DNA of 64,000 nucleotides from Microcystis wesenbergii NRERC-220. GTDB lineage: Bacteria; Cyanobacteriota; Cyanobacteriia; Cyanobacteriales; Microcystaceae. This document shows, in pieces, positions 19,654 through 63,139 of this stretch. Position 1 is the first letter of the stretch, and each line of letters starts with the position of its first letter. Location: NCBI RefSeq assembly GCF_032027425.1, contig NZ_JAVSJA010000001.1:3237501-3301500 (forward strand), given 5' to 3'. The position numbers and the translations under genes are program-made. The notes beneath the pieces are model-generated. The model was given only the letters and a program-made list of their open reading frames with translations, did no database searches and was not told the origin of the DNA.

Positions 19654-20493
19654 ATGATTAACCATCTCATGTATATTGTTATGGATAGCTGCCGTCATGA
19701 CAGCTACTCTGCGGCATCAACTCCCAATATGGATCGGCTGGGTAAGGCTGAACGCCGGTATAGCTATGCTTCTTGGACATCCCCTTCCCACTATGCTATG
19801 TTGATGGGCATGGTTCCTCACAAAAGTCCTCGGGGCGTGTTTGCCTCTGAAGTTTATAAACAAGAATTTGCTAAATGGGTAGATCGTTTAGGAATCCCAG
19901 ACTTGTCCTTTAAAACCTTTATTCCCCAACTCTCCTTACCGAAAGTCTTAAAAAACCAAGGTTATAAAACTATTGGCCGAGTTTCTCTACCTGTTCTCAA
20001 CCAATTTACGAGTATTAATAAGTACTTTGATGACTATCGACTAATGCCCACTCACAATGAATTTGCCAAAATGGTTGAGGAAGTAGAATTTCCCGACGAA
20101 CAACCTCAGTTTTACTTTTTTAACTTAGGAGAAACCCACTATCCTTATATGCTGGAAGAGGATGAACTGCCCCATATATCTGGAGTGCATGGAGTTTTTA
20201 AGAGAATGGACGATCTGCTGCAAACTGAAACCGAGACAGAAAAAAAAGCCGAAAAGTCATTTTTCAATTCAGCAGAAATGGAGCAGCTACACAAACAGCA
20301 AATTCGTTGTGTTGAGTATGTCGATGGTTTGCTAGGTGAGCTATTTCGTAAATGTCCTGCTAACACTCACATTATTGTCACTGCAGATCATGGAGAGTTG
20401 TTTGGAGAAGACGGTTATTTCGGACACGGGCCTGTGATGCACGAAAAATGCTTTGAAGTTCCCTTCTTAGAAGGATTATGTCCCCAAATTTAA
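19654..20493 (+). CDS. Sulfatase-like hydrolase (alkaline phosphatase superfamily)
   Basis: 279 residues. Metal-binding features of the superfamily are seen at the N-terminus (YIVMDSCRHDSYSAASTPNM) and C-terminus (IIVTADHGELFGEDGYFGHG). The nucleophile region SWTSPSHYAMLMG aligns with the sulfatase CxPxR loop but lacks the Cys, so it is not a canonical formylglycine sulfatase; Ser or Thr could serve. It is shorter than most sulfatases (around 450-500) because the C-terminal domain is missing. First gene of the plus-strand operon, 27 bp before the methyltransferase. Probable action on a sulfate or phosphate ester of the pathway product is inferred. Confidence 0.75.
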   Translation: MINHLMYIVMDSCRHDSYSAASTPNMDRLGKAERRYSYASWTSPSHYAMLMGMVPHKSPRGVFASEVYKQEFAKWVDRLGIPDLSFKTFIPQLSLPKVLKNQGYKTIGRVSLPVLNQFTSINKYFDDYRLMPTHNEFAKMVEEVEFPDEQPQFYFFNLGETHYPYMLEEDELPHISGVHGVFKRMDDLLQTETETEKKAEKSFFNSAEMEQLHKQQIRCVEYVDGLLGELFRKCPANTHIIVTADHGELFGEDGYFGHGPVMHEKCFEVPFLEGLCPQI

Positions 20494-20520
20494 AATAAAA
20501 CCAAGACAAGGAATTGTTAT

Positions 20521-21405
20521 ATGCCAGTCATTACTTCTTATGAACCATTTTCCCTGCAACCCGAATACCTAGAAGCAAACCGAGAATTTCTACACAGTTT
20601 GCCCTTAGAAAATGTCAGCCAGGTTCTCGATCTTGCTTGCGGTACAGGAACTCTCAGTGAATTGCTCCTAGAAATCAAACCAGAGGTAGGGATTGTTGGC
20701 ATAGATATTTCGACAGAATCTCTCGAGATTGCGCGGGAATTATTTAAAGAAAAAAAGATGCTCGTTCAAGACCATGACGCGCTTAATTCAGCTTTAAAAT
20801 CCGGGCAAAGTGCTGTGCTTCTAAAAGTCGGTAGTGCTGATGATTTTGACTTAGAACCGGCAAGCATGGATCTCGTCCTGATGGGCAATGCCATCCATTT
20901 ACTTCCCGACAAAGAGAAATTAATCCAAAGTATCAGTCGAGTCTTGCGTCCTGGCGGAATTTTTGCCTTTAATTCTTGCTTTTTTATCGGCACCTATCCC
21001 GAGGGAACAGAATCGATCTATACTGAATGGATGAAAGAAGCCTTAGCTATCGTCTCCGAGAAACTGCTCCAATTGCAGCAAGCTGGTCAAGAAGGCATTC
21101 GCAGAAAGCGCGGTAAGGGGAATCGAGCTTTTGGCAATGAATGGTTCTCTCCACTTCAATGGCGGGATTTGCTCAATAGTCACCATTTAGAGATTATTCA
21201 GGATAAGCAGCGTACTGTCATGCTGACCCAGCGAAGTTTGGAAACCATTGGCGCCTATGCAGGGTTTGCTGAAGTCGCCTTAAGTGGCTATCCGGTAGAG
21301 ATAGCTAGTGAAGCTTTGCAAGAAGCGGCGGCAGTTACTTTAAACAATCTACAAATCAAAGAAATTCCCCGACTTTGGTTGGAGATAGTAGCCGTGAAAA
21401 ACTGA
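20521..21405 (+). CDS. Class I SAM-dependent methyltransferase
   Basis: 294 residues. Motif I is VLDLACGTGTLSELL (about residue 38), the acidic strand 2 end is GIVGIDISTESLEIA, and motif IV is DLVLMGNAIHLLPD, followed by ISRVLRPGGIFAFNS. This is a Rossmann-fold methyltransferase of the Methyltransf_11/25 type, using S-adenosylmethionine. The C-terminal third is helical and probably defines the substrate, which cannot be read from sequence. Second gene of the operon, with a GGAATT-type ribosome site; 58 bp before the CobW gene. Confidence 0.87.
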   Translation: MPVITSYEPFSLQPEYLEANREFLHSLPLENVSQVLDLACGTGTLSELLLEIKPEVGIVGIDISTESLEIARELFKEKKMLVQDHDALNSALKSGQSAVLLKVGSADDFDLEPASMDLVLMGNAIHLLPDKEKLIQSISRVLRPGGIFAFNSCFFIGTYPEGTESIYTEWMKEALAIVSEKLLQLQQAGQEGIRRKRGKGNRAFGNEWFSPLQWRDLLNSHHLEIIQDKQRTVMLTQRSLETIGAYAGFAEVALSGYPVEIASEALQEAAAVTLNNLQIKEIPRLWLEIVAVKN

Positions 21406-21463: not shown

Positions 21464-22417
21464 ATGCTTAAAACACCTTGCAACGCAATCGCCGGCTTTT
21501 TAGGCAGTGGCAAAACTACACTTTTAAGAAATTCCCTAGAAAAAGTCTTTCAAGAGAAGCGCGTGGCGATTATCATGAATGAAATTGGCGACTTGGGAAT
21601 TGATGGTAAAGTAGTATCAGGATTTGAAAGTATAGATAAAGTAGTAGAATTGAACAGTGGTTGCGTCTGCTGTAGTGTTGACATCTTCTCTTTACACAAC
21701 GCCTTTCGGGAAATTCAAGAACAAATAAAGCCCGATTTAATAGTCATAGAAACCACTGGACTGGCAAATCCCTTTCCCCTGATCCAGCGCCTCCATTATC
21801 TCGATGTCATTCTCGATTCAGTAATCACCTTAGTAGATGCTTCAGAGTTTTTGCGGTTGGCAGCCGAAGAAGAAGTACTCAACGAGCAGGTAAGGGCGGC
21901 AGATTTTCTGATCTTGAATAAGACAGATTTAGTGACAGAACTAGAAATTGAGCGAGTCGAAAGCCATCTCCGTCAATTGAATCAAAGAGCCCCCTTATTT
22001 AAAACTACTCACAGCAATATCGATCCCAAATTATTGTTCGCCCTAGGAGCTAATCTTTACAGAAGGCAATCAAAGCTACTGGAAACTCAAGTAACCAAAT
22101 CTGCTCATGGTTTCCGCGACAGCCATCAAGATTTTTCCTCTTTTTCTTATCAGACAGAACGATTGGTGAACTTGGATAAATTCAAGCAATTTCTCGGAGA
22201 ACTTTCCCCAAAAGTTTACCGTGCCAAAGGAATTCTCAATTTAGATGATAGAGCAACATCCTGTCTGTTTAATTTTATTTGCGGTCGTTTTGATTTTCAG
22301 GTTGTGGCCCCCGATATCTGCGGAAAAATGCCAACGCAAGCGGTTTTTATCGGTCGCAACTTAGAACAAGAGCAAACAGCTATCATCCAGCAATTACAGG
22401 CTTGTCAAGATAGTTAA
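21464..22417 (+). CDS. CobW/P47K-family G3E GTPase (metallochaperone-like)
   Basis: 317 residues. Walker A is IAGFLGSGKTTLLRN, the CXCC metal-binding motif is in NSGCVCCSVDIFS, and the guanine-specificity motif is LILNKTDL. The C-terminal CobW_C domain (about 215-300) has SPKVYRAKGILNLDD. These GTPases deliver zinc or other metals to client enzymes. Its position between the methyltransferase and the megasynthase, 20 bp upstream, suggests a client inside the pathway such as the Rieske enzyme or the phosphatase-like hydrolases; this is inference. Confidence 0.9.
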   Translation: MLKTPCNAIAGFLGSGKTTLLRNSLEKVFQEKRVAIIMNEIGDLGIDGKVVSGFESIDKVVELNSGCVCCSVDIFSLHNAFREIQEQIKPDLIVIETTGLANPFPLIQRLHYLDVILDSVITLVDASEFLRLAAEEEVLNEQVRAADFLILNKTDLVTELEIERVESHLRQLNQRAPLFKTTHSNIDPKLLFALGANLYRRQSKLLETQVTKSAHGFRDSHQDFSSFSYQTERLVNLDKFKQFLGELSPKVYRAKGILNLDDRATSCLFNFICGRFDFQVVAPDICGKMPTQAVFIGRNLEQEQTAIIQQLQACQDS

Positions 22418-22440
22418 ATTAATCAAAATTAGAGGTTATG

Positions 22441-25400
22441 ATGGATAAATTCAACTGCTTTTCTCTGAGTCCCATTGAGCTAGAACACCCTGGTTTAGCC
22501 ATCGCCAGCATTCGGGCTGGGGGAATCGGGATACTCGATCGAGAATTTTGTCAACCAGAAAATCTAGAGCGAGCAATTAGTAATCTAGAGCAGGTTTTAG
22601 CTTTAAAAAATGCTCCTAGAGCAGCCGGACTGAGACTGAATTTAACACAGATCGAGCAGAGCAGCCAACTTTTGGCTAGATTGGAACTGGAATCTCACTG
22701 GTTGATTCTCAGTGGCTGGCAAGAGGCAACTGCTGAAACGCTCAGAGAGAAATTACAGCTTCTTTCTGGGGAAAATCGCCTAATTTTGCTGGAAATAACC
22801 GATGCCAATCAACTGCCTCTCTTAGCTTCTCTGTTTCCTTTCCTGGCTGGATTGGTAGCCAAAGGACAGGAAAGTGGCGGTTGGGTAGGGGAAGATCCCG
22901 CTTTCATCCTCACTCAGAAATTATTGAAAACCTCCTCCCTGCCCATCTATGTGCAAGGAGGAATCGGTATTCATACCGCGTCCGCCTGTCGGGCTGCCGG
23001 TGCGGCGGGCGTCGTCTTAGACGATCAATTATGGCTGATGCCCGAATCTCCTCTGCCTGGAGAATGGCAAGAATACTTACGTTACTTAAACGGGCAAGAA
23101 GCGAGCGCCATCGGCGAGAGGTTGGGGCGCGCTTGTCGTGTATTGTCCCGTCCCGGTTTTGCTGCCGTTGCCAAGTTGCAAGAAATGGCGGGACAGATAG
23201 AGATTCAAGAAGAAGCCTCAGTTTCTGGCCAGATCTGGCAGCAACGAGCCACCTCCCTGATTGGCTGGGAAAATCCTGCTACTCAAGCTTGGCCAATGGG
23301 ACAAGCGAGCGGGTTAGCGGCTGATTTCCGCAAGCGTTACCAGACCACGGGTAAATTTGTGCAAGCCCTGCTCAAGGGCAGTCAGGAACAGGTGCAGACA
23401 GCCCAGGAGCTAAAACCTCTACAAGCGGAAACTCCCTTGGCAGTTTCCCACGGCACCAAATATCCTATTGTCCAGGGGCCAATGACTAGAGTCAGCGATA
23501 CGGCAGAATTTGCCCATGCAGTTGCTCGCTCAGGCGGACTGCCCCTCTTGGCTTTGGCTCTGATGCGGGGAAAACAGGTCGGGGAACTGTTGCAGAAAAC
23601 CCAAGCCCTTCTCGGAGAGCTACCTTGGGGTATTGGCATCCTTGGCTTTGTTCCACAGGCAATTAGGGAAGAACAACTGCAAGAAGTCCAGAAAATTAAG
23701 CCGCCTTTTGCCTTGATTGCCGGGGGCAGGCCGGATCAGGCAGCGAGGTTGGAAGCCCAAGGAATTGCCACCTACCTCCATGTTCCCGTGCCAGCACTCC
23801 TGAAAATGTTCCTCGAACAGGGGGCGCGGCGGTTTATTTTTGAAGGGCGAGAATGCGGAGGACACGTGGGGCCACTGAGCAGTTTTGTCCTCTGGGAAAG
23901 CATGATCGCTACCCTGTTAGAGAAAGTACCAGCTGGAGCAGAGCAGCAAATTCACGCCATCTTCGCCGGTGGGATTCATGACGCTCTCTCGGCCGCTATG
24001 ATCAGTGCCATGGCCACTCCTTTGGCAGTAAGGGGCATGAAAATTGGCGTGTTAATGGGCAGTGCCTACCTCTTTACTGAGGAAGCAGTGGCTTGTGGAG
24101 CAATCCTGCCAGAGTTTCAAGCCCAAGCCCTCAGTTGCCAATCGACCATCAACTTAGAAACCGGACCGGGCCATGCCAGCCGTTGCGCTGTCACCCCATT
24201 TGCCCGCGAATTCTACGACACCCGCCGGCAAATGGCAGCCCGGGGCAGTTCTGCCGAAGAAATTAAGAACGTTTTGGAAGACCTGACTCTAGGACGGTTA
24301 CGGATAGCTACCAAAGGTTTGCGGCGCAATGAGACAGGCCAAATAGTCTCGGTCAACCAAGAGCAACAGGTTAGCGAAGGGATGTACATGATCGGTCAGG
24401 TGGCAACCATGCGCCATCAAGTGATCAGCGTCAGTAGCTTGCACCAAGAAGTAGCTGAAGGCAGCGGCCAACTCCTGACTTCTCTTTCCCCAGCAGGTGA
24501 AGAGAAAGTCCCCGCTCCAACCCGACCCTCAGATATTGCCATCGTTGGCATGGCGACCCTCGTTCCTAAAGCAGACGCACCGGAGACTTTTTGGAAAAAC
24601 ATCCTCTCCCGGGTAAAAGCTATTGGCGAAATTCCCGCTCACCGTTGGGACTGGCGTTTGTACTACGATGCTGACCCACAAACACGAGATAAGGTCTATT
24701 CCAAATGGGGTGGTTTCATCGATGAGGTTCCCTTCGATCCTCTGCGCTTTGGGATTCCTCCCGTATCTCTCAAGTCCATCGAACCACTACAGCTATTGAC
24801 TTTGGAGGCTGTGCGAAGAGCCTTAGAAGATGCGGGTTACGGGGGAGGAGATTTCGACCGAGAACGTACCTCAGTCATCTTGGGTGCGGGCGGAGGGATA
24901 GGAGATCTGGGCGGGCAGTATGCAGCGCGAGCAGAAGTGCCGAGGGTGGTTGAAAATCCCTCCCCACAGATCTGGGATCGTCTACCAGAATGGACGGAAG
25001 AAACTTTTCCAGGTTTACTGTTGAATGTGGCAGCTGGCAGGGTGGCCAACCGTTTTAACTGTGGAGGCTCTAACTTCACTGTTGATGCGGCCTGTGCTTC
25101 TTCCTTGGCTGCTATTGACCTAGCAGTGACAGAATTGGAAACGGGACGAAGCAATCTCTGTATTGCAGGGGGCATTGACACAGGGCAAAGCCCTTTTGCT
25201 TATTTTTGCTTTAGCAAGACCCATGCCCTCTCTGCCCAAGGTCAACCCCGCTCCTTCGATAAAGCTGCCGACGGGATTGTCATCAGCGAAGGTATTGCCA
25301 TCGTTGTTCTCAAGCGTCTGGCAGATGCGGAACGGGATGGAGACCGAATTTATGCAGTTATCAAAGCGGTCGCTGGTTCCAGCGACGGTAAGGCCTTGGG

Positions 25401-28353
25401 TTTAACTGCTCCCCTGCCAGCAGGACAAAAGCGAGCGCTACAGAGAGCTTACGACAAAGCCGGATTTTCTCCCGCTAGTCTAGGACTCTATGAAGCCCAC
25501 GGCACGGGGACGGTGGCCGGCGATCGAGCAGAATTAGAAACAATTACCAGTTCTCTACAAGCCTCTGGGGCAGAGCAAAAATCCTGCGCTATTGGCTCAA
25601 TTAAAACCTTGCTCGGACATACTAAAAGTGCCGCTGGGGTCGTTGGACTAATGAAAGTAGCCCTCTCCCTACATCACAAAGTCCTACCCGCTCACTTTGG
25701 GGTTGAGACACCCTTAGACCCGATTGTGGATCCAGAAAGTCCGGTCTATCTCTTGAAAGACAATCATCCTTGGCTGACTAATCCCAACCAACCTCGCCGG
25801 GGAGCGGTCAGTGCTTTTGGCTTTGGGGGGACGAATTTTCATGCCATTCTCGAGGAGTATGGGGGAGCAGTTCAGAGACCAGCCGTGGGAGGAGATAACT
25901 GGCCTTGGGAATTGGTGATCTTGGCTGCCGAGAATCGCCAAGAATTATTGCCAAAAGTGCGGTCTCTGCTGACAGCTTTGCAAGGAGGAGCAAAACCGCG
26001 ACTGGGAGATCTGGCCTACAGTTGCGCTTTAACAGCGACAAACCACCTAGGCAGGGGAGCAACCCTAGCCATCGTGACCAGTAATTTGTCAGAGTTAGTC
26101 GCCAGCTTGTCCTCGGCTCTTAGTTATCTGGCAGGCGATTCTGCCAGTCCCCTGCCCCCTGAGATTCAGTTCTCCGAAGGCCACACCCCCACTGGGACAA
26201 AAGCTCTCACTGCTTTTCTCTTTCCGGGGCAGGGGGCGCAATATCCCGGCATGGCCAGGGAAGTTGCTCTCTATAGGCAAGAGATGCGCCAAGCTTTGGA
26301 ATTTGCCGACAGCCATCTGGACCATCGCTTCCCAAAATTGCTGAGTCAGTATATCTATCCCCCCAGTGCCTATTCAGAAGCGGCCGAAATTAGCAATGAA
26401 CAACAGCTTAAACAGACTCAAGTAGCTCAACCCGCTCTAGGAGCCGTGGAATCGGGCTATCTAGCCTTGCTGGCCAAGCTGGGCATTAAGGCAGATTTGG
26501 CAGCAGGACACAGTTATGGCGAATATACAGCCCTCTACGCTGCCGGTGTGCTATCCCAAGCTCAATTTCTCAATCTTTCTGCCCTTAGAGGCCAGATTAT
26601 GTCCCAAGCTTGTCAGGGGGTTGAGGGAGCTATGGCTGCCGTGCAAATCACCCGCGAGGAATTGGCACAATATCTTGACAGTTTTCCAGGAGTTGTGGTA
26701 GCCAATCACAATGCTCCCCTTCAGTCCGTCATTTCCGGACCACAAGCAGCGATCGAACAAGCAATCAACAGTTTGAACGCGGACGGCATTACCGCTAGAA
26801 AGCTGCCTGTGGCCGGAGCTTTTCACTCGCCCTTGCTGGCAGAGGTTCAGGAAGAGTTGACCCGTCAGTTAAATTCTGGCTGCTTTGAGTCTCCCCAGTT
26901 TCCTGTCTATGCTAACGCTACAGCCCTTCCTTACCCTTCAGATGCCGATGGCATCCGTGGCCAGTTAAGCCAACAGGCTCTCCGTCCAGTAGAGTTCGTC
27001 AGTCAAATTCAGGCTTTATATGAAGCTGGCGCTCGCACCTTTATTGAAGTCGGTCCAAAAAGCATCCTGACCAAGTTCGTCGGTCAAATTTTAGGAGACA
27101 AAGAGCATACTTGCGTATCTTTAGATGGGCAAGGGGGAGGACTGCGAGGCTTTCTGCTGGGCTTAGGGACTCTAATTACCAGAGGGCTAGATGTGCAACT
27201 CCTTTCTCTGTTTGTCGGACGCCAAGTCCAGCAGCTGCAATTATCTCGACTGGCAGAGCTAACGAGCCCCTCTCAATTAGCACCCACCACTTGGCTGGTT
27301 AACGGTGGTGGTGTCAGGTCATTAGGAGCTACCAATAGTTATAGCGGCAAGCTCCCCCCCCTGTCCTTGGAAACGTCTATCCTAGGCAGACAAGACAAAA
27401 AAGGGCAAAACGGTAACACCGAGGCGAAGCCAGACTCAGGGATAGAGCGATTTGAGCCAGTCAAGCCGCCTAGTCCTGCCCCTCATGCCCATTCCCCTTC
27501 CCAACTCACCGGGTTAAACCCCATAGTTCCTACTAATTCAAATCCGCAACCCAAAATCCAGCGAACAATGTCTGAACAAAATTTTCCCCCGCTCTCCCAA
27601 CCGGCAACTCCACAGACTTATTCTACTAGCCAAGAACCCTCAGTTGCTGGCTCGGTGGCTTTACAAGCCTATCAAGCTTACCAGCAGACCATGCGTCAGT
27701 TTTTGACTCTTCAGGAGAAGGTAATGCTGCAATTTCTCCAAGCCAGTCAGGTAGAAGGAATGACTCCTTCAAGATTGGTGGCTATGCCAGAGCGGAGCCG
27801 GCCGGCAGCCCAACCTGTACTTTCCCTTGGCTCCAATGGAGGGGGAAGTGCTAACCTCTCCCCTGCTTCGCCGCCAGTACCCCCCCGAATTTCCCCACCC
27901 CCTTCCCGACCCGCTGCACCGCCTCAGATATCCGTTAGTCCCACATCGGTTAGTCCCACAATTGAGCAGCAAGAGCCAGTGCTCAAGCCCCAGCCAGCAG
28001 CAGCATCTCCCAATCTGCCAACCCCTGCCGATGCCGTTGTCCCCTCTGTCCTGCTCGAACGGGAGAGTTTGACCAAAACTCTCTTGCAATTGGTCAGTGA
28101 ACGCACTGGCTACCCAATTGATATGTTGGGCTTGGATCAGGATTTGGAAGCAGAACTAGGAATTGACTCGATCAAGCGAGTGGAAATTTTGGGAGCAATA
28201 CAGAAAAGTTTGCCCGCTGCTGTCGCTGAAGGTATGCAGTCCCAGATGGAAAATTTGACCAAGGTTAAATCCCTGAACGGCATTGTTCAACAAGTCTTAT
28301 GCCTCTCACCGTCTGGGACAGTGGAACCCTCAAAAAGCTTGGGAAAGTTCTAG
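22441..28353 (+). CDS. PUFA-synthase-like multidomain protein: NMO-NMO-KS-AT-ACP
   Basis: About 1970 residues (first of two adjacent ATGs at 22438). Residues ~1-270 form a degenerate nitronate-monooxygenase/enoyl-reductase barrel (VQGGIGIHTASACRAAGAAG); ~340-640 form a second with ECGGHVGP near 472, the PfaD-type enoyl reductase signature. The KS spans ~697-1135 with C886 in VDAACASS, EAHGTGT and GHTKSAAG. The AT spans ~1230-1530 with S1359 in GHSYGE. A Pro-rich linker leads to one ACP, phosphopantetheine site S1911 in LGIDSIKRVE. Together these extend and reduce an acyl chain. It resembles PfaA/HglE-type iterative synthases with PfaD fused in front, a form I do not recognise as a named system. 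The KR follows in an overlapping frame. Confidence 0.88.
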   Translation: MDKFNCFSLSPIELEHPGLAIASIRAGGIGILDREFCQPENLERAISNLEQVLALKNAPRAAGLRLNLTQIEQSSQLLARLELESHWLILSGWQEATAETLREKLQLLSGENRLILLEITDANQLPLLASLFPFLAGLVAKGQESGGWVGEDPAFILTQKLLKTSSLPIYVQGGIGIHTASACRAAGAAGVVLDDQLWLMPESPLPGEWQEYLRYLNGQEASAIGERLGRACRVLSRPGFAAVAKLQEMAGQIEIQEEASVSGQIWQQRATSLIGWENPATQAWPMGQASGLAADFRKRYQTTGKFVQALLKGSQEQVQTAQELKPLQAETPLAVSHGTKYPIVQGPMTRVSDTAEFAHAVARSGGLPLLALALMRGKQVGELLQKTQALLGELPWGIGILGFVPQAIREEQLQEVQKIKPPFALIAGGRPDQAARLEAQGIATYLHVPVPALLKMFLEQGARRFIFEGRECGGHVGPLSSFVLWESMIATLLEKVPAGAEQQIHAIFAGGIHDALSAAMISAMATPLAVRGMKIGVLMGSAYLFTEEAVACGAILPEFQAQALSCQSTINLETGPGHASRCAVTPFAREFYDTRRQMAARGSSAEEIKNVLEDLTLGRLRIATKGLRRNETGQIVSVNQEQQVSEGMYMIGQVATMRHQVISVSSLHQEVAEGSGQLLTSLSPAGEEKVPAPTRPSDIAIVGMATLVPKADAPETFWKNILSRVKAIGEIPAHRWDWRLYYDADPQTRDKVYSKWGGFIDEVPFDPLRFGIPPVSLKSIEPLQLLTLEAVRRALEDAGYGGGDFDRERTSVILGAGGGIGDLGGQYAARAEVPRVVENPSPQIWDRLPEWTEETFPGLLLNVAAGRVANRFNCGGSNFTVDAACASSLAAIDLAVTELETGRSNLCIAGGIDTGQSPFAYFCFSKTHALSAQGQPRSFDKAADGIVISEGIAIVVLKRLADAERDGDRIYAVIKAVAGSSDGKALGLTAPLPAGQKRALQRAYDKAGFSPASLGLYEAHGTGTVAGDRAELETITSSLQASGAEQKSCAIGSIKTLLGHTKSAAGVVGLMKVALSLHHKVLPAHFGVETPLDPIVDPESPVYLLKDNHPWLTNPNQPRRGAVSAFGFGGTNFHAILEEYGGAVQRPAVGGDNWPWELVILAAENRQELLPKVRSLLTALQGGAKPRLGDLAYSCALTATNHLGRGATLAIVTSNLSELVASLSSALSYLAGDSASPLPPEIQFSEGHTPTGTKALTAFLFPGQGAQYPGMAREVALYRQEMRQALEFADSHLDHRFPKLLSQYIYPPSAYSEAAEISNEQQLKQTQVAQPALGAVESGYLALLAKLGIKADLAAGHSYGEYTALYAAGVLSQAQFLNLSALRGQIMSQACQGVEGAMAAVQITREELAQYLDSFPGVVVANHNAPLQSVISGPQAAIEQAINSLNADGITARKLPVAGAFHSPLLAEVQEELTRQLNSGCFESPQFPVYANATALPYPSDADGIRGQLSQQALRPVEFVSQIQALYEAGARTFIEVGPKSILTKFVGQILGDKEHTCVSLDGQGGGLRGFLLGLGTLITRGLDVQLLSLFVGRQVQQLQLSRLAELTSPSQLAPTTWLVNGGGVRSLGATNSYSGKLPPLSLETSILGRQDKKGQNGNTEAKPDSGIERFEPVKPPSPAPHAHSPSQLTGLNPIVPTNSNPQPKIQRTMSEQNFPPLSQPATPQTYSTSQEPSVAGSVALQAYQAYQQTMRQFLTLQEKVMLQFLQASQVEGMTPSRLVAMPERSRPAAQPVLSLGSNGGGSANLSPASPPVPPRISPPPSRPAAPPQISVSPTSVSPTIEQQEPVLKPQPAAASPNLPTPADAVVPSVLLERESLTKTLLQLVSERTGYPIDMLGLDQDLEAELGIDSIKRVEILGAIQKSLPAAVAEGMQSQMENLTKVKSLNGIVQQVLCLSPSGTVEPSKSLGKF

Positions 28354-30842: not shown

Positions 30843-30860
30843 TTTATCAGAAGGATTCTC
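30828..30860 (+). terminator. Hairpin at the end of the left-arm operon
   Basis: GAGAATCCTTCT and its exact reverse complement are separated by nine bases containing the TGA stop of the KR-DH gene. The stem is 12 bp. No T-tract follows, so it may stabilise the RNA end rather than terminate by itself. Confidence 0.55.
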
Positions 30861-31387: not shown

Positions 31388-31500
31388 TTGACATCCTCAC
31401 CGCCGTAAACGGACGGTGATTCCCAAACCTCACGATTTAGGCTTCGGCCGTGAGCTCAGGCTTCGACGGTGAGCTCAGCCGAACCGCCGAACGGTTTCTG
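31388..31500 (-). ncRNA. Probable omega RNA (right-end RNA) of tnpB
   Basis: TnpB families use an RNA from the 3' end of the gene and the right end as guide. Here the right-end hairpin lies about 30 bp after the tnpB stop, and the transcript would read out into flanking DNA as guide. Limits are approximate; the call comes from family knowledge plus the visible hairpin. Confidence 0.45.
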
Positions 31501-35011: not shown

Positions 35012-35035
35012 CCATAAGGGTAATCGATGGTGTTA

Positions 35036-54664: not shown

Positions 54665-55423
54665 TTATCTTTCTAAAACAGGAAGTAGGTGGGGGTGGAC
54701 AATTACAGTATCGTCTTGCTGTTGAGTTAAATAAACAATAATTGCTGCCACATCTTCTACTGTGAGTAGTCCACCATAACGACGGGCTAATGCAGTTTTA
54801 GCAATCATGCCAGTTTCTACCAAACCAGGAAAGATTGCTTGCACACGAATACCATAGGGGCGCACCTCTTCAGCAAGGGATTCAGTTAATCCTACCACGC
54901 CAAACTTGGAGGCACAATAAGCGGGAGCGTAAGGTTCCCCCCTTAAACCATAGGGTGTTGTTGACGAGCAAATATTCACAATCTGACCCGATGCTTGTGA
55001 GATCATGATCGGCAAAACGGCACGATTGCTTAAGAATATTCCTGTTAGGTTAACTTCCAAGAGATCGTGCCATTCATCTAAGGAAAGTTCAGTAGTCGGA
55101 CGGGGCAGGGAACGATCTGATCTGACTTTTTTACCCAATCCAGCACTGGCAACAAGTAAGTCAATGTTACCAAAATGGGCGACTGCTTGGTTGACCATTT
55201 CCTCCATATCTGCTTCCTTTCTAACATCTAGTGCTAGTCCGAGATGGGAAGCTGGAGAAGGATTGCATTTATCATTGATTAAGTTGAGAGTCTGCTCAAT
55301 GCGCTCAGGGTTGGTGCCGACGACGACAACAGAAAAGCCTTGCCCAGCAAGAGCTAAACAAGTCGCTCTACCAATGCCTCGACTGCCACCTGTAACAATT
55401 GCCACTTTCTGTTGATTAGACAT
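54665..55423 (-). CDS. Short-chain dehydrogenase/reductase
   Basis: 252 residues. Coenzyme site IVTGGSRGIGRATC, LLVASAGLGKKV, catalytic Ser in NICSSTTPYG and Tyr/Lys in PAYCASKFGVVG. Related to the adjacent SDR. An FabG-like 3-ketoacyl reduction role is possible, since the megasynthase already has its own KR this would be for tailoring or for another chain; not decidable from sequence. 67 bp separate it from the upstream hydrolase gene. Confidence 0.87.
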   Translation of the reverse strand: MSNQQKVAIVTGGSRGIGRATCLALAGQGFSVVVVGTNPERIEQTLNLINDKCNPSPASHLGLALDVRKEADMEEMVNQAVAHFGNIDLLVASAGLGKKVRSDRSLPRPTTELSLDEWHDLLEVNLTGIFLSNRAVLPIMISQASGQIVNICSSTTPYGLRGEPYAPAYCASKFGVVGLTESLAEEVRPYGIRVQAIFPGLVETGMIAKTALARRYGGLLTVEDVAAIIVYLTQQQDDTVIVHPHLLPVLER

Positions 55424-55490: not shown

Positions 55491-56375
55491 CTATTTTTCT
55501 AAAGCTGGACTGACCAACAACTTTCTCTCTAAAAACCGATTGTCCTTCTGGCAAAAATTCAAGATCACTTGCACAAATTGATCGGGTTTAATCACGGGAA
55601 AAAAGTGTCCTACTTCTGGAATAATTACCTCCGAACAATTGGGAAGTAAGTTCTTTAACTGGGAGCAAGTCGGCAGACAGTGAGACTTCTCTCCATAAAT
55701 TGCTAGAGTTGGTTGAATAATTTGTGACAATTTAGCCGTCGTTATTTCAGTTTCCTGCTCAAATTCTTGCTTGGCACCAGTTGCCATCAATTTTTGCCAT
55801 CGCTCCTTTCCTTTTCTGCCCATATCACGGTTTTTTAAGGAAGGTTTGGTCAGTTCATTGACAGTTGTATTTAACTGGTCGAGCAGGTGAAAATCAATAA
55901 TCTGATCTTCTGACGGCAGGGGCGCTCCTTGTTCTAGAAGTTTTTGTCGCCAACTCTGCCAATGAGGCCAATCCCGCAGCCGCATCTTGGCTTGCAAGCA
56001 TTGTAATTGAGTATCTGCTACTGTCAGAGACTTAACTTGCTGAGCATGGGAAATGCTATAAAGGAGAGCAACCCTCGCTCCAAAACTATGCCCGACAAGA
56101 TGAACTTTTTCGACTTCGAGATACTCAAGCAGGACTCGCAGGTCTTGTACCATCCGAGTCAGAGTATAGCCAGAGTCAGATATTGTACTTTTGCCATGGC
56201 CTCTGAGGTCATAAATAATCACGCGGTAGTGCTGGGCAAGGGCAGAAGCGATACCGGGATACCAAAAAGCTAGGTTAGCTCCTAGCCCATGGATAAGCAA
56301 TAAATCTTCCCCTTCTCCCAAGCATTGGTAGTTTAAAGATATCTGGTGAACTGGATCAACTTGAACTGTAGGCAT
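55491..56375 (-). CDS. Alpha/beta hydrolase (possible thioesterase)
   Basis: 294 residues. Oxyanion motif LLLIHGLGANLAFWYP, nucleophile elbow LVGHSFGARVAL, catalytic Asp region around LAIYGEKSHCLP and His in EVGHFFPVIKPDQF. The catalytic triad appears complete. In a megasynthase locus without a TE domain such an enzyme could release the chain from the ACP, but esterase activity is equally possible. It lies in the right-arm series between the phosphodiesterase-like gene and the SDRs. Confidence 0.85.
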   Translation of the reverse strand: MPTVQVDPVHQISLNYQCLGEGEDLLLIHGLGANLAFWYPGIASALAQHYRVIIYDLRGHGKSTISDSGYTLTRMVQDLRVLLEYLEVEKVHLVGHSFGARVALLYSISHAQQVKSLTVADTQLQCLQAKMRLRDWPHWQSWRQKLLEQGAPLPSEDQIIDFHLLDQLNTTVNELTKPSLKNRDMGRKGKERWQKLMATGAKQEFEQETEITTAKLSQIIQPTLAIYGEKSHCLPTCSQLKNLLPNCSEVIIPEVGHFFPVIKPDQFVQVILNFCQKDNRFLERKLLVSPALEK

Positions 56376-56486: not shown

Positions 56487-58085
56487 TTATTCCATATAAC
56501 CCAGTAACTGAAGTTGATGGAGAAGAGCCTCTTTTTCGGTCTCAGAAATTTCTGCTTCCTCTTCGTCACTTTCCTGCTCCCAACTGTCAGAGAAGTCTTG
56601 ATAATTAATGGGACGAGCCTTAAGAACTTCAGGTTTGAGAACTTCTTGGGGAACTCTTCCTTCTAGATTAGTGGGAATTGGCAGTTGCAAGCAGTATAAC
56701 AACAAAGGCGTAATATCGAGAATAGATAGAGGTTGTAAGTGTTGGCCGCTGACAAAATCAGGACCAGAACCGATGAAAATTCCAGCCGGACGGTGAGTTC
56801 CATCGGGTTTGACTCTAGGCCTGACCACCTCTGTGGATTTCAAAATGGAAACAAAGCCCCCATCCCGCAACCTGACGGTCATGTCAGGGGAATTTTCCGC
56901 TTCTGGTCTTCCAGCAAGTTTAGCTCGGTTTAAAGTGACTTCAAGAAAGATCGGTTCCCCGTCGGCTGGATTTCTGTAGTCAAGAAGTTGTCGCTGCAAG
57001 CTTTGGCAAAATTGCTGGTAATCTTCTTTTTTAACACCATGATTGAGAGGAGTCTCTTTCTTAATGTAAATGCCATTACTGCTAGGGGTAGGGCAATAGG
57101 CGATGGTCTTCTGCCAGTCAATCAGCATGAGATGATCTTTCATCCTGTCTGCTGTTAACTTGCCATCCGTATCCGTCTGGGCTGTTTCCCCCCAAGTTAG
57201 GTATCCTTGACGGGCTAGCCATTCATTGAGATAAACAACTTCTGTTGTCGTGCCGAATCCATGGTCTGAGGTCAGAAGGACATTAGTTTCCGGTCCTGCC
57301 AACTTCACCAACTGCTCGAGCATGCCATCTAACTCTCGATAGTGCTGAATACAGAGTTCGCGAATTTGGCTCTCTTTTGGATCCGCATCAGTCCCCATCA
57401 GTGGTGGATACAGATAGCGCCAGAAAAAGTGTTGCAGCTTGTCGGGACTGTCCAAGACAATGGCAGTTAAATCCGTAGGATCGGTTGTCATCAGATAAGC
57501 GAGTAAATCAGCCCAAGTTTTCGTTCTCTGGGAATGAATGGCGATCCAATCTTCGTATTCTTCTTCCGGTATGCCTTGAATGGTTTTCTTTTCTTCCGTG
57601 ATATCCATGCCTAAATGTTTGTAGTCAAAATTAGGCAAGTTTTTGATGGTATCAATTAGTTGAGAGGGGTGGGTGGCACTCCGTAAATGCTTCCAAGTGA
57701 CGAAACCAGAGATGGAATAGCCGTCAAGAGGCGGGGGAGGAGCCATGCCAAAAAAGTTCAAAGCCGTTACCCGTTTGCCATAGCGATTGGCCATCGACCA
57801 GATTGTTTCACAGCGAACATTGCGGGAGTCATTGACCTTGAGAAAGATTTGTTCTCCAACCTGTTCAGGATACAAAAAATCATGGATGCCGTGAGCATCA
57901 GGACTCCTGCCAGTGATCATCGATACCCATCCTGGCGGGGTGAGAGGATTAGGGGTTGACATTAAATCTGCCCACACTCCCTGCTTGACAAATTGCTGCA
58001 AGAATGGCATGATACCATCCTCCATCAAAGGATTCAAGAGAGAGAAGGTCGCTCCATCGAGTCCAAGCATCAAAACTTTATTCAT
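56487..58085 (-). CDS. Type I phosphodiesterase / nucleotide pyrophosphatase-like enzyme
   Basis: 532 residues. Alkaline phosphatase superfamily: metal-binding LMLGLDGATFSLL at the start (Asp with Thr as likely nucleophile), SMITGRSPDAHGIHDF, IVLDSPDKLQHFFW and NVLLTSDHGFGTTTEVVYL near residue 265. The C-terminus is acidic (EQESDEEEAEISETEKEAL). It likely hydrolyses or transfers phospho-/sulfo-ester groups; soluble as no signal peptide is seen. 69 bp after the ACP gene. A second superfamily member starts the left-arm operon, so two such enzymes serve one locus. Confidence 0.83.
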   Translation of the reverse strand: MNKVLMLGLDGATFSLLNPLMEDGIMPFLQQFVKQGVWADLMSTPNPLTPPGWVSMITGRSPDAHGIHDFLYPEQVGEQIFLKVNDSRNVRCETIWSMANRYGKRVTALNFFGMAPPPPLDGYSISGFVTWKHLRSATHPSQLIDTIKNLPNFDYKHLGMDITEEKKTIQGIPEEEYEDWIAIHSQRTKTWADLLAYLMTTDPTDLTAIVLDSPDKLQHFFWRYLYPPLMGTDADPKESQIRELCIQHYRELDGMLEQLVKLAGPETNVLLTSDHGFGTTTEVVYLNEWLARQGYLTWGETAQTDTDGKLTADRMKDHLMLIDWQKTIAYCPTPSSNGIYIKKETPLNHGVKKEDYQQFCQSLQRQLLDYRNPADGEPIFLEVTLNRAKLAGRPEAENSPDMTVRLRDGGFVSILKSTEVVRPRVKPDGTHRPAGIFIGSGPDFVSGQHLQPLSILDITPLLLYCLQLPIPTNLEGRVPQEVLKPEVLKARPINYQDFSDSWEQESDEEEAEISETEKEALLHQLQLLGYME

Positions 58086-58154: not shown

Positions 58155-58457
58155 TTATTGCAGATTTTTGTGCAGGAACTCAACAATTTCTTTCACTTCA
58201 AGTTCATCAACGTAGTCTCCCTCCCTCATAAATAGTTGTTCAAAGGGCAATCCCTTGCGCTCAAAGTTCTTTTCTAGGGCAACTACCAACTGCACCACAT
58301 CGATCGATTCAAAAGCCAAATCTTCCATGAGGCGAGTCTCTGTATCTATTTTGCCGCCATCCTCCAATTCCCAGTCGGCCGTCATATTTTCTAAGACAGC
58401 AATTACTTGGGCTTCGATATCTTCTTGGCTAAAAATTAAACTTTGTTTCCCAGACAT
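58155..58457 (-). CDS. Discrete acyl carrier protein
   Basis: 100 residues, acidic, four-helix ACP pattern. The phosphopantetheine site is S51 in LAFESIDVVQLVVALE. It is longer than AcpP and the Ser is preceded by Glu rather than Asp, as in many specialised ACPs. ATG 58457, 98 bp downstream of the KS-AT-DH gene. It likely carries the growing or finished chain for the downstream KS-AT-DH protein, which has no ACP of its own, and the fused PPTase domain could activate it. Confidence 0.88.
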   Translation of the reverse strand: MSGKQSLIFSQEDIEAQVIAVLENMTADWELEDGGKIDTETRLMEDLAFESIDVVQLVVALEKNFERKGLPFEQLFMREGDYVDELEVKEIVEFLHKNLQ

Positions 58458-58555
58458 AAATTAATTAACCTCACTTTTCAAAAACAACAATTGAACAAGA
58501 ATTAATGTTGTGTTTACATTATAGTCACTTAGCTGCTATTGTCAAAGGCTGCCTG

Positions 58556-61500
58556 TTAGTTTTCTTGATTATCAATACTTGGTTCAACCACAGCCGCAAC
58601 AAAAACGTTCTGATTCTGGCCGATTGAAACCTCAGGCACTACTCCTATCTTCTCCAGTGGAGGGCAGTACACTTGCAGCTTACCGCTCTCGGTGGGGAAG
58701 AGTTGGATGTCTAGGGGGCCTAGAGCCAAGTCAAATTTTTGCCAGGCAAACTGGCGAATGGTTTCCTTGGCCACCAAACTCCCTAAGAGCCACTGCTTAC
58801 GCTCGGAACCCTGCTCTGGTAAACTGTACCAAAATTCTCGCTCTGATTGGGTGAAAATCAGGTGAGCGATGATATATTTAATCACCCCTCCCAATTCATC
58901 CAAAAAGTTGACGGGAACTAAGGTCAGCCGACGGGAGAGCATACCTACTTCCTCTTGCCAAGGCTCGGACCAGTAGGCCACTTGCGGCTCCCGGCGGAGT
59001 TGATGATACTCCAGAGGGACACGAATAAAGATTTCCAGTAATCCTTCCAAGCGAGCAATCACAAGGTCTTCGCTGTTGAGAAACTCAAAATTACCTTGAA
59101 GCTGTCGCTCGCCGTCAAAGCTTAACCAACCACGACAGGAGATGGGAGTTCCGGCAGGCAAGGGAGGAGCATATTGCTCGAAAACCCTAACACTGAAAGG
59201 AAAAGTATGAAAATTCACCCCAAAGAACTCCGAACCCCAGTAGGCCACTAACTGGGCGGCCGCATCCAAAAGTGGCGCATCAATCTGAAAGATGGGTCTG
59301 GCAATATCTCTAAAAAAATTATCGACGCGCATCACTTCTAGATCAGCTTCAATCCCTTGCTGGCTGACCTGGCGAATATGCTTGACTCCCTGGAGTCGCG
59401 GGCCGTGGAACATACCTTCCGTATAAAGTTGCTCGTCTGACCAGCGTGAGGGTTGGGAGTCCTGCCACTGGCAAGGGGTTGCTGGTGGTGATGGATTTAG
59501 TTGAGAGGTGAGCCTGACATCACCCTCAAAGACTAAACGGCGCTCGCTGCCCCGCGACGGCTGAAACAGTTGGACGTGGACATCCCAAATATCTGGTGCT
59601 AATTGCTCTTGCAGTTGGGCAACGATGTCGAGAACCAAGTATCCCTGTTCCAGAGCCAGCCAGCGATAGCTACGCACGTTGTCAACCTGACTGACCCATT
59701 GCTGTCCATCACAGAGAAAGGCAGCAGCTTCTGCGATAATTTCCATGCTGACGGTAAAGGGAATCACGGGCAAGGGAAATTCACCAGCCTGCCGATGGGA
59801 CCAGGGGCCTCCTAGCATATGGTCATAAATGAAGTCATCCCAGTGGAGATCGAAATGTCGCCGGCAGTAGAGGTAGCCTTCGCCCTTCTCAATAATCTCC
59901 CCTAGGAAAGGCCAAGCCTCTGAAAAGCTGAGGGGAACAGATTCTACATCAACCCAAGGCAGACCAACCGCTTCTTGCTGCTGATGGGAGAATGGGTTTG
60001 TATAGAAACTGCTGATCGTCCTAGCTTGACTATTGAGGAATTCCTCCATCAAATCCAAGTGACTCAAGAAGACAGGAAGACGAATATCGGGGAAGCTGGC
60101 AGAGAAACTGGGTGAAGAAATCTGCTCTTGTAGAGGAGGCTTCTCTGGGGGGAAAACCGGCAAAGTTGACGGTAGTTCAATACTCTCTGGGACTTGGCCC
60201 TCTCTACCCGTTGCCACTGGCGGCACCGAGGGGAGCTTCTGCTCAAGGGTGTGGACAAAAGCTGATGTAAGTTTCATCTTGGGCATGGTCAAGTCCAAGA
60301 GCCTTTTCTGCCTACCGTTGCCTGCTGCTTCTAGAGAGGCAGTCTCTAGGTTTACTAGGTCCACTTGCCGGTATTGGTAGAGAGGAGCAAAATTGAGGGC
60401 GCGACCGTTGACAAATAACTGGGCTAACAGATGTTGAATTTGTTCGAGACCGGAACGACGTTGGCTGCTGCTGGCCAGAACCAAGCAGTCTTGCCCGGAG
60501 AGAATATCTCTAACGAAGTTGCTGAGATTGCTACTAGGACCTACCTCGACAAAAGTTCTGACTCCCTGTTCATAGAGGTGGCCAATCGTTTCCCGGAAGC
60601 GCACCTGGCTCGACCACTGGCTCAGGGCCAATTCTCGAATTTCCGGTGGTGTTGGCGGGAAAGGACCCGCCGTAGCGCAAGTGTAGAGTTGGGTATGCCC
60701 TGGTCCAACAGTCAACCCCTGATAGTATTCCCTGAGAGCTTCTGCCACTTGGTTAAACAAGGGCGTATGGTAGGCACGATCAAAGGGCAGACGGGTACAG
60801 ATTCCCCCTAATTCTCTGAGTTGATTGGCCGCTTGCTTGATGGCATCTTCATTACCAAAGAGAACGGCTTGGTTAGGACAGTTGTCCATGGCTAGGTAGA
60901 GTTGCCCCGAAGATTGGGCGACCATCTCTGCCAAAATGGCAGTTTCCACAGCACCAACAGTGAGCAGAGTCCCTCGGGGAATGCGGTCTTCTGCTGTCAA
61001 ATCTAGGTAAATTTGGTTAAGTTCGAGAATTTTCTGCCCCATTTCTCGGCGGCTGGCCAGTTGGATAGTTCCAGATGCAATCAGGGCTGTATTTTCTCCC
61101 GTACTGTGACCAACCATCACGTCACACTGGATTTCTAGATCTTTGAGCAGTTCGTAGAGAGCCATACTAGCAGTAAAAACTGTCTCCGTTGCCAGATCTA
61201 GGTTATACAACTCCTTGGCTGCTAGGAGGCGTTGCTCCTCGCTCAAGCCTGTGGGTGGCGGAAAAATAAAGTAACTTGGCGGATAATTCCTATTTTTGCC
61301 AAATATATCGTCTAAAAAGTCGAACCAAGCCCGCACTTTCGGGAAGTGGAGACAGAGATCTGAGAGCATATTGGTGTACTGAGATCCCTCTCCCGGAAAT
61401 AGGAAAGCGGTTTTACCTACTTCAGTTTCCGGATGTACCTGAGCGTAGTAAATGCCACTGCGAGTCTGGAAACGAGTCCGCCCGGGTTCTGCTAGTTTTG

Positions 61501-63139
61501 ACTTGGCCAGTTGGAGTTTGGCTTGTAAATCCGTCTTCTCGGTGGCAACTATAGCCAGACGGTGAGGGCCAGGATTACGGTTAGCTAGGGTATAAGCTAA
61601 GTCAGAAAGGAGCAGATTGGGGGATGACTGCAGCCGCCGCTCTACCTGTTCAACTAAATCAATGAGATTGGCTGTCTCATCTCCCGAAAAAACGAACAAT
61701 TCTGTGGGCCATGAACAGGGCAGCTTCCTCTCTGGAAGCTCAGGGGAGCGATCGTATTCTTCCAAAATGGCGTGAGCATCGATGCCCCCAAAACCAAAGG
61801 CATCAATACCAGCACGACGGGGTTCTTTGCTCTGTCCGTTAATCCAAGGACGGGCTTCTGTATTGACGTAAAATGAAGTCTTTTCTTCCTCTAGACAGGG
61901 GTGAGGCTGCTGACAGAGGGTAGGAGGTAAGACTTTATAATAAAGAGCTAAAGCCATTTTAATCAGACTGGCGGCTCCGGAGGCGGGAATGCAGTGGCCG
62001 ATCGCTGATTTAACCGAACCAATGGCCCGGTGGGGCATCTCCCCTTGACGTTGGCCAAAGATGTGGGTGAGGGACTTAATTTCTGTCCTATCTCCCAAGG
62101 GCATCCCCGTGCCGTGAGCTTCCACAAGAGTAACTGTGTCTGGATCAATGCCGCTATTCTCGTAAGCTCGCTGGATGGCCAGTACCTGCCCTTGCCAACG
62201 GGGAGCTAACAGTCCCAAACCTTTGCCATCGCTGGCAGTGCCAATACCTTGAATAACTGCGTAGATGCGATCGCCGTCTTTTTGGGCATCAGCTAGGCGT
62301 TTGAGCACTAAAATTCCCAAGCCCTCACTGAGAAGAGTTCCGTCGGCAGACTGGTCAAAAGGCTTGATGGTAGAACGGGAGAGGGCATCGAGTTGGCTGA
62401 AGACCATGTGAACCTGGGGTGGTGTAGAAGCTTGGACTCCCCCCGCCAGCATCATGTCGCAGCGACCGCTCAACAGTTCTTGGATTGCTAAATCAACGGC
62501 AATCAAAGAGGAAGCGCAAGCTCCATCCACTAAGTAGTTAGGACCCATTAAATCGAGGCGGTTGGCAATGCGTCCAGTCACCACATTAGGTACTAATCCA
62601 GGGGACATCTCGGCATTAAAGGGGGGCAAGCTGGCTTTTAGCTCTTGGCGGACCCGGCCCAAGGTTTCGGCATCGAGAGTGGGGACGATTTGCTGTAACA
62701 GTTCTATGGTTTGATCGGCGATCAGACCATGTTGGATGACCGTGCCAAAACCCCGATTGAAGTAAGTGCCGCGCCCCAAGATAATGCCAGCTTTTTCACG
62801 GTTGAAAGGGCGAACGAGATAGTCGGCATCTTTCAAAGCATCCCGGGCAATTTTCAGGGAGAGAAAATGATCCGGATCGCCCCCCTCAATGGAGTTGGGC
62901 ATAATGCCAAATTCTAGGGGATCGAATTCGGCGATATCATCAAGAAACCCCCCTTTACAGGTATATAATCCGCCATTATCATCGCAAGAATTGGCAGGAT
63001 TCCAGTCATCGGGGGCTTCTCGAATGGCGCTGACCTTACTGAGAATATTTTGCCAGTAGGTAGCCAGATCCTTGGCGCCTGGGAACAGTCCAGCCATGCC
63101 AATAATCGCAATCTGAGCAGGTGAGTTTGCCGAATTCAT
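58556..63139 (-). CDS. PUFA-synthase-like multidomain protein: KS-AT-DH with C-terminal PPTase-like domain
   Basis: 1527 residues. KS at ~8-450 with C208 in VDGACASS, EAHGTGM and GHCIPASGAASL. AT at ~565-890 with FLFPGEGSQY and S679 in GHSTGE. A linker rich in Pro precedes a hot-dog DH-like region (~1080-1390) with H1107 in DHMLGGPWSHRQ. The last ~130 residues resemble a 4'-phosphopantetheinyl transferase core (WLLGSLVAKETIRQF; K1458-E1459). No ACP, KR or ER is present, so it needs the discrete ACP and the left-arm KR and reductase. It resembles PfaC/HglD-type subunits. First gene of the right-arm series; no clear ribosome site. Confidence 0.85.
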   Translation of the reverse strand: MNSANSPAQIAIIGMAGLFPGAKDLATYWQNILSKVSAIREAPDDWNPANSCDDNGGLYTCKGGFLDDIAEFDPLEFGIMPNSIEGGDPDHFLSLKIARDALKDADYLVRPFNREKAGIILGRGTYFNRGFGTVIQHGLIADQTIELLQQIVPTLDAETLGRVRQELKASLPPFNAEMSPGLVPNVVTGRIANRLDLMGPNYLVDGACASSLIAVDLAIQELLSGRCDMMLAGGVQASTPPQVHMVFSQLDALSRSTIKPFDQSADGTLLSEGLGILVLKRLADAQKDGDRIYAVIQGIGTASDGKGLGLLAPRWQGQVLAIQRAYENSGIDPDTVTLVEAHGTGMPLGDRTEIKSLTHIFGQRQGEMPHRAIGSVKSAIGHCIPASGAASLIKMALALYYKVLPPTLCQQPHPCLEEEKTSFYVNTEARPWINGQSKEPRRAGIDAFGFGGIDAHAILEEYDRSPELPERKLPCSWPTELFVFSGDETANLIDLVEQVERRLQSSPNLLLSDLAYTLANRNPGPHRLAIVATEKTDLQAKLQLAKSKLAEPGRTRFQTRSGIYYAQVHPETEVGKTAFLFPGEGSQYTNMLSDLCLHFPKVRAWFDFLDDIFGKNRNYPPSYFIFPPPTGLSEEQRLLAAKELYNLDLATETVFTASMALYELLKDLEIQCDVMVGHSTGENTALIASGTIQLASRREMGQKILELNQIYLDLTAEDRIPRGTLLTVGAVETAILAEMVAQSSGQLYLAMDNCPNQAVLFGNEDAIKQAANQLRELGGICTRLPFDRAYHTPLFNQVAEALREYYQGLTVGPGHTQLYTCATAGPFPPTPPEIRELALSQWSSQVRFRETIGHLYEQGVRTFVEVGPSSNLSNFVRDILSGQDCLVLASSSQRRSGLEQIQHLLAQLFVNGRALNFAPLYQYRQVDLVNLETASLEAAGNGRQKRLLDLTMPKMKLTSAFVHTLEQKLPSVPPVATGREGQVPESIELPSTLPVFPPEKPPLQEQISSPSFSASFPDIRLPVFLSHLDLMEEFLNSQARTISSFYTNPFSHQQQEAVGLPWVDVESVPLSFSEAWPFLGEIIEKGEGYLYCRRHFDLHWDDFIYDHMLGGPWSHRQAGEFPLPVIPFTVSMEIIAEAAAFLCDGQQWVSQVDNVRSYRWLALEQGYLVLDIVAQLQEQLAPDIWDVHVQLFQPSRGSERRLVFEGDVRLTSQLNPSPPATPCQWQDSQPSRWSDEQLYTEGMFHGPRLQGVKHIRQVSQQGIEADLEVMRVDNFFRDIARPIFQIDAPLLDAAAQLVAYWGSEFFGVNFHTFPFSVRVFEQYAPPLPAGTPISCRGWLSFDGERQLQGNFEFLNSEDLVIARLEGLLEIFIRVPLEYHQLRREPQVAYWSEPWQEEVGMLSRRLTLVPVNFLDELGGVIKYIIAHLIFTQSEREFWYSLPEQGSERKQWLLGSLVAKETIRQFAWQKFDLALGPLDIQLFPTESGKLQVYCPPLEKIGVVPEVSIGQNQNVFVAAVVEPSIDNQEN

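Follow-up and report, generated by a model that had tools for sequence, protein, structure and literature searches.

A putative secondary-lipid synthase cluster, probably cut and partly inverted, in an accessory island of Microcystis wesenbergii NRERC-220

Two groups of genes resembling polyunsaturated fatty acid (PUFA) synthases lie in a 64,000-nucleotide stretch of the genome of the cyanobacterium Microcystis wesenbergii NRERC-220 (positions 3237501-3301500 of contig C1 in a genome of 4.68 Mb; hereafter, the window), and the locus raises the question of whether these groups, here called the left and the right arm, are two clusters or the pieces of one. A preliminary description had read them as a single locus, split by about 20 kb of mobile DNA. 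We conclude that the arms are very probably the halves of one PUFA-synthase-like cluster, located in an island between ureC and moaC, which was cut between its ketoreductase-dehydratase (KR-DH) gene and the following ketosynthase (KS) gene and whose downstream half was inverted.

The domain layout was obtained by scanning open reading frames (ORFs) with Pfam and NCBIfam profiles. The first left-arm protein carries, in a single chain, an NMO/enoyl reductase (ER) domain at residues 336-671 followed by KS, acyltransferase (AT) and acyl carrier protein (ACP) domains (Pfam), and the second carries KR and DH, as described earlier. The overlap of the two genes (28353/28299) is not a frameshift, since KR-DH is a separate ORF in most relatives; it is fused to the first left-arm protein in two (G016 and G035). 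By its domains, the left arm alone is predicted to span the whole elongation cycle (KS, AT, ACP, KR, DH and ER), so the earlier statement that neither arm is complete is wrong. For the right arm, KS-AT (recognised by Pfam), DH and a discrete ACP were borne out, but a working phosphopantetheinyl transferase (PPTase) was not: the DH has no Pfam match in the window protein at E 0.001 and was recognised by alignment with relatives having one, and the PPTase ends ahead of its catalytic half. The discrete ACP, without a Pfam match, was assigned by homology; a small protein occupies the same position in eight loci (41-69% identity), and the G035 homologue is fused to a sulfotransferase, where Pfam does detect a PP-binding domain. 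The KS, AT, KR and DH motifs and the ACP serine were all found, and all three megasynthase ORFs are open. Genome-wide there are five KS-family matches, and only those of the left and right arms lie in frames longer than 1500 aa.

With the KR-DH protein as query, we searched a sample of 388 genomes from the order, our own included (cited by our numbers, as G016 above). Matches at 1e-60 were found in 88 genomes, of which 14, our own among them, stand apart (best E <=1e-180, identity >=40%); the next genome follows at 5e-83 and 32%. In each of these 14 carriers (13 besides our own), one contig holds both the left arm and the right-arm KS-AT. A search with the C-terminal part of the right arm found 12 of the 388 genomes, ten of them shared with the 14 left-arm carriers, and for the remaining four carriers the KS-AT was shown by reading the loci. 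Such co-occurrence had been expected of a single locus, and the patterns that would speak for separate ones (one arm alone with a full enzyme set, or arms in unrelated positions with independent distribution) were not seen. Pairwise distances of the left and right KS-AT regions are congruent (Mantel 0.951, p=0.0001, 16 loci), and G233 (Chroococcus sp. CMT-3BRIN-NPC107) is the partner of the window in both clades of the KS tree, left (support 93/87) and right (97/84). The Mantel test and the tree omit G215 (a remnant), G263 (at a contig edge) and G248 (fragmentary). With the co-occurrence, the congruent distances and the adjacency of the arms on one strand in nine of the 14 carriers, the two arms make up, as far as sequence comparison can tell, a single secondary-lipid synthase cluster whose halves are inherited together.

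In these nine carriers (G023, G093 or Trichocoleus FACHB-40, G162, G214 or a Coleofasciculus metagenome-assembled genome, G233, G248, G311, G331, and G350 or F. thermalis PCC 7521) the KR-DH gene is directly followed by the KS-AT gene, an order also found at three further loci, in Symplocastrum (L030), Westiellopsis (L031) and the proteobacterium UBA2383 (L035), and probably ancestral. The gap between the two genes, in the seven relatives measured, is -4 (four loci), -40, +65 and +78 bp; the G214 KR-DH ORF is short (518 aa). In the window, KR-DH ends at 30842 (+) and the KS starts at 63139 (-), on opposite strands and 32 kb apart. Most carriers have the series ER-KS-AT-ACP, KR-DH, KS-AT(-DH-PPTase) on one strand, and in G162, G233 and G248 it continues with ACP, phosphodiesterase, hydrolase and two short-chain dehydrogenase/reductase (SDR) genes. 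Read leftwards from its KS, the window has the ACP, phosphodiesterase, hydrolase and two SDR genes, the gene at 52299 (on the opposite strand) and the sulfotransferase. Order and relative orientation on the right arm are those of the G162 locus, except for the methyltransferase and the esterase, which lie elsewhere in our locus; the unit therefore appears to have been severed at the KR-DH/KS junction, with inversion of the half downstream. Un-inverting the segment would place the HlyD-like gene on the KS strand, as in seven of nine relatives (G016, G331, G350, Westiellopsis, G311, G035 and UBA2383). Gene order thus points to an inversion plus DNA rich in insertion sequences (IS), not a plain insertion, and the arms are no longer able to form one transcription unit.

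The earlier notion of a split by mobile DNA is in part correct, since IS-rich DNA does separate the arms (Table 1); the right half is also inverted, however, and the block holds non-IS genes with homologues in relatives. It contains at least seven IS elements, in agreement with the six or more first counted, and genes for FG-GAP, glycosyltransferase, beta-lactamase-like, PPC and coiled-coil proteins. The PPC protein at 45183 has a 38% homologue inside the cluster of G035, and the gene at 47407 a weak one (26%) in G162. The FG-GAP genes had been called broken, which may fit the short ORF but not the other, which is open; inside the latter, strong repeats recur about every 220 bp, and it has no other match within the 100 kb searched. 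The IS630-type pieces read as if a single element had been interrupted by an IS4. Two IS4 copies (42271-43416 and 48823-49968) are 100% identical over 1146 bp and in direct orientation, with the beta-lactamase-like, PPC and coiled-coil genes between them. An IS605 remnant was suspected at 63145-63640; a search of the genome gave only short partial repeats there, and we do not claim it.

The island as a whole is strain-variable. In the closed same-genus genome G002 the matches to ureC and moaC are 41 bp apart, without window positions 16068-67843, and thus represent an empty site. Other DNA occupies the same gap in G005 (about 11 kb), G007 (about 9 kb) and G008 (about 19 kb), which marks it as a variable-insertion site. 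The right arm was found in none of 11 other genomes of the genus, one of them of the same species, and no left-arm match above 32% was found in these 11. The left arm has a G+C content of 52.7% and the right KS gene one of 51.1%; the flanks lie at 44.9% and 42.5%, with single 2-kb bins of up to 51.6%. Because of the raised G+C and the patchy distribution, horizontal acquisition of the cluster would be the simplest reading.

Table 1. Coordinates of the cluster, the island and the neighbouring features (positions in the window, identities at the protein level)
Feature	Position	Strand	Basis and remarks
Accessory island	16068 to ~67843 (past window end)		51.8 kb; between ureC (ends 16057) and moaC (starts 68065)
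Tetratricopeptide repeat (TPR) protein	18425-19378	-	Pfam; 35-50% homologues in the G162, G233 and G331 stretches and in G035
Sulfatase-like (alkaline-phosphatase superfamily) hydrolase	19654-20493	+	Pfam; 73-79% in 5 relatives
S-adenosylmethionine (SAM) methyltransferase	20521-21405	+	Pfam; 58% in G162, 48% in G016
CobW-type GTPase	21464-22417	+	Pfam
Left arm 1: ER-KS-AT-ACP (PfaD-PfaA-like)	22438-28353	+	Pfam/NCBIfam
Left arm 2: KR-DH	28299-30842	+	Pfam; motifs present
Repeat mosaic, left side of break	30843-31455		Right after the KR-DH stop; 44 matches in own genome
IS-rich block	31456-50870		TnpB, IS630 pieces, four IS4, IS5 and other genes
TnpB	31456-32670
IS630-type transposase pieces (DDE_3, HTH)	33422-33913 and 35221-35580		Either side of an IS4
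IS4 copies	33932, 40107, 42272, 48824
FG-GAP_2 ORF	36062-36619		Short, 185 aa
FG-GAP protein	37199-39961		Open, 920 aa
IS5	49965
Sulfotransferase	51040-52005	-	Pfam; 52-55% in 4 relatives
Conserved protein	52299-53789	+	45-60% in 5 relatives' loci
SDR reductase	53860-54633	-	Homologues in relatives' loci
SDR reductase	54665-55423	-	Pfam; homologues in relatives' loci
Alpha/beta hydrolase	55491-56375	-	Pfam; GHSFG elbow
Type I phosphodiesterase / nucleotide pyrophosphatase family enzyme	56487-58085	-	41-63% in 8 loci
Discrete ACP	58155-58457	-	Contains LAFESIDVVQLV; homologues in 8 loci
Right arm: KS-AT-DH-PPTase remnant	58556-63139	-	Begins at the broken junction
HlyD-like membrane-fusion protein	63709-66306 (past window end at 64000)	+	Pfam; homologues in relatives' loci
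Esterase	66337-67410 (past window end)

Several observations weigh against or complicate the reading as a single, inverted cluster. By raw identity, the left KS-AT is closest to that of Symplocastrum, and the right one equally close to those of Symplocastrum and G233, so the pairing with G233 rests on the KS tree, with moderate support in the left clade. A DH-PPTase part is missing from the right arm of G311, G314, G035 and UBA2383, and that of G093 and G023 is without the DH. Besides the window, four of the 14 carriers are without the canonical junction: in G016 the right arm lies upstream, about 2.2 kb away, in G035 the arms are about 21 kb apart on the same strand, in G314 they stand head to head, and in G279, of the same family as our genome, IS630-type and DDE_Tnp_1 transposase genes sit at the same junction and KR-DH is cut to 689 aa. 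The break in G279 is separate from that in the window, and the junction of this cluster type has thus been broken at least twice. The HlyD-like gene is opposite to the KS strand in G162 and G279. None of the 12 same-genus genomes, our own included, has the unbroken form, so the inversion is deduced from other genera. Finally, no long inverted repeat joins the two break ends; recombination between such repeats was considered and none were found, which leaves the mechanism of the flip unproven.

The truncated PPTase and the split operon also speak against an intact cluster, and could reflect decay. The right-arm protein stops before the half bearing the G(I/V/L)D...WCAKEA motif, which is present in six relatives (Symplocastrum, G016, G162, G214, G233 and G331), and none of the three frames of the minus strand at 58400-58700 showed such a tail. 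Pfam detects ACPS in Symplocastrum, G016 and Streptomyces, weakly in Westiellopsis, and not in the window protein. That the cluster was acquired, cut and inverted and is now losing parts, no longer functioning, is a possibility to be taken seriously, although we consider it somewhat improbable. Its IS-rich surroundings fit decay, as does G279 with its transposases, short KR-DH and likewise missing PPTase half; in G215 (L129, G215:C51) the tailoring genes are kept and the megasynthases mostly gone. The open megasynthase ORFs with their KS, AT, KR and DH motifs argue in the other direction. Moreover, the PPTase half is degenerate, by a motif that we presume to be diagnostic, in Westiellopsis, F. 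thermalis (G350) and G263 as well, and for this reason may be dispensable. Elsewhere in our genome, at C1:747892, lies one ACPS-family gene.

The history of the cluster, and its working if the halves do still cooperate, could be as follows. After horizontal acquisition, a single inversion of the segment from about 30.85 to 63.15-63.7 kb, aided by IS activity, would have parted the arms. The AT domains would load malonyl units, which the two KS domains would condense iteratively while KR, DH and ER reduce, so that the ACPs end up carrying a very-long-chain acyl group that is saturated or partly oxygenated. Since the cluster's own PPTase is truncated, these ACPs would be charged in trans by the other PPTase of the genome. 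The hydrolase, the SDRs and the sulfotransferase may then free the chain and modify it, with export possibly aided by the HlyD-like adaptor.

What the chain might be is suggested by the nearest described kinds of synthase, Type M and Type P, the likeness to Type M being one of domain order. Type M (Shulse & Allen 2011; Frankia, Streptomyces, Renibacterium) comprises a fused PfaDA and a PfaBC-PPTase protein, as given in the available text of PMC3098273 and, for Renibacterium, in that of PMC13291983. The window shares the PfaD-like ER fused ahead of KS-AT-ACP; its right-arm protein, with KS-AT and an aligned DH but the PPTase cut short before its catalytic half, may correspond to the PfaBC-PPTase protein. 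A Streptomyces plasmid cluster, taken to be Type M, has a fused polyketide synthase (PKS), KS-AT-DH-PPTase, ACP and an alpha/beta hydrolase in succession. Unlike Type M, the window has a separate KR-DH gene, a truncated PPTase and a cut and inverted operon, and adds sulfotransferase, phosphodiesterase, sulfatase-like and SDR genes. Type P (arsABCD, phenolic lipids of Azotobacter and Beijerinckia) resembles it in the first left-arm protein, 39% identical over 96% to a Beijerinckia PKS, and in a Beijerinckia PPTase-family protein that is 26% identical to the C terminus of the right arm. Where Type P has a type III PKS, the window has a second KS-AT protein; no type III PKS was found among the ORFs given to Pfam, which were part of those in the window and its right flank. 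The C23-C25 acids that go into Azotobacter phenolic lipids are products of ArsA (available text of PMC4824345). By analogy with these acids, with the fused PfaDA/PfaBC-PPTase clusters and with the Beijerinckia likeness, a very-long-chain acyl product is likely, and the final product is probably a very-long-chain, possibly sulfated lipid.

The sulfotransferase leaves room for either sulfation or sulfate-driven decarboxylation. It has six matches in PDB, best the CurM sulfotransferase (5.7e-16), then a polyketide-synthase sulfotransferase (1.5e-14), enzymes that we take to act in curacin and olefin synthesis. In G035 (L132:14826-16121, -) an ACP-sulfotransferase fusion, much closer to CurM (2.5e-56), adjoins an alpha/beta hydrolase. 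The sulfotransferase and the hydrolase might accordingly yield a terminal alkene, as in the ACP-sulfotransferase-thioesterase units of CurM and olefin synthases, rather than a sulfated lipid, an outcome that we regard as decidedly unlikely. All nine aligned hydrolases are without Asp at what we presume to be the usual late acid position, and an Asp 24 residues past the window's Ser is kept, which favours the alkene. The window sulfotransferase, however, is divergent and by eye resembles the other discrete sulfotransferases of G035, the CurM thioesterase is not among the best 60 of the 298 PDB matches of the hydrolase, and the stretches examined of G016, G233, G214, G279 and G248 yielded no sulfotransferase. 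The parts in the window are also discrete, and the synthase is of PUFA type, not a modular PKS.

Two independent clusters sharing one island, a self-sufficient ArsA-like synthase on the left and a right arm from another source, are very unlikely. The left arm does have every elongation domain, the Beijerinckia and Methylosinus stretches show ArsA-like and DH-PPTase proteins with no second KS-AT (in an incomplete gene table), and the ureC-moaC gap is a spot of variable insertion. This reading is largely refuted by the invariable co-occurrence, the correlated distances, the sister locus that the two KS clades have in common and the order of the right-arm genes, kept as in G162 and G233.

Kinship to the heterocyst glycolipid (HGL) and Type G synthases was assessed with a KS tree, whose references were HGL loci (F. 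thermalis, G311, G331) and Type G-like loci. In the F. thermalis locus, devB and devC neighbour genes of the PfaA, PfaB and PfaD families, and the product of this locus is presumably heterocyst glycolipids; the G311 and G331 loci were assigned by similarity to it. The left and right KS each form a clade (100/100 and 100/99), and the KS of the HGL loci all fall outside these two, the first, PfaA-type one (HGL1) pairing with the Type G-like KS (100/99); HGL or Type G identity is therefore ruled out in this tree, in line with the early view that a heterocyst glycolipid was unlikely. The left arm scores 821 bits with the PfaA model (cut-off 1010), and the HGL reference 2230. The HGL synthase (Type F, hgl) shares the PUFA-synthase-like KS-AT-ACP-KR-DH logic but has separate PfaB and PfaD genes, and in G311, G314, G331 and G350 the left arm coexists with an HGL-like paralogue (29-30%) distinct from it. 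Type G (Microcystis NIES-843, Nostoc 7120) is likewise cyanobacterial, PUFA-synthase-like and present in some Microcystis; its KS-AT, judged from the G006 and G258 loci that we infer to be Type G, is only 36-39% identical, and it has no ER fused in front. That the cluster is one of these known pathways is thus next to inconceivable, even though hglE-KS-type clusters are reported from Microcystis genospecies K, O and P and Type G includes NIES-843 (available text of PMC9839332 and PMC3098273, respectively).

Among the remaining neighbouring genes, the sulfatase-like hydrolase has a homologue in G279 elsewhere in that genome, the CobW-type GTPase found no match at 1e-8 among the relatives' loci, and the conserved protein at 52299-53789 has no Pfam or NCBIfam match and no significant PDB match. 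The cluster continues beyond the end first assigned to it, with the HlyD-like adaptor and then the esterase.

The cluster type is known. Cyanobacterial PUFA-type clusters have been grouped as CF-1 to CF-3 (Calteau et al., available text of PMC4247773), and, in the accessible portions of the respective reports, hglE-KS clusters are restricted to genospecies K, O and P among 122 Microcystis strains (PMC9839332) and present in strain KLA2 (PMC6965573), which may be this cluster or Type G. In the open-licence literature we found no report of a sulfotransferase with a PUFA synthase or hglE-KS in cyanobacteria, nor the sulfotransferase-bearing cluster family in print. It is conceivable, if on balance unlikely, that we are dealing with an undescribed family of sulfotransferase-bearing lipid clusters, present in cyanobacteria and a proteobacterium, whose product is a very-long-chain lipid, sulfated or with a terminal double bond, and which still works here despite the cut and flip, with a PPTase supplied from elsewhere in the genome. 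In place of a vague "hglE-KS"-type reading, the locus offers a defined, co-inherited gene set, and since Chroococcus sp. CMT-3BRIN-NPC107 has the cluster unbroken, its product can be sought there. For Microcystis, it means that a bloom-type cyanobacterium bears a strain-variable, putative lipid pathway at a site of variable insertion.

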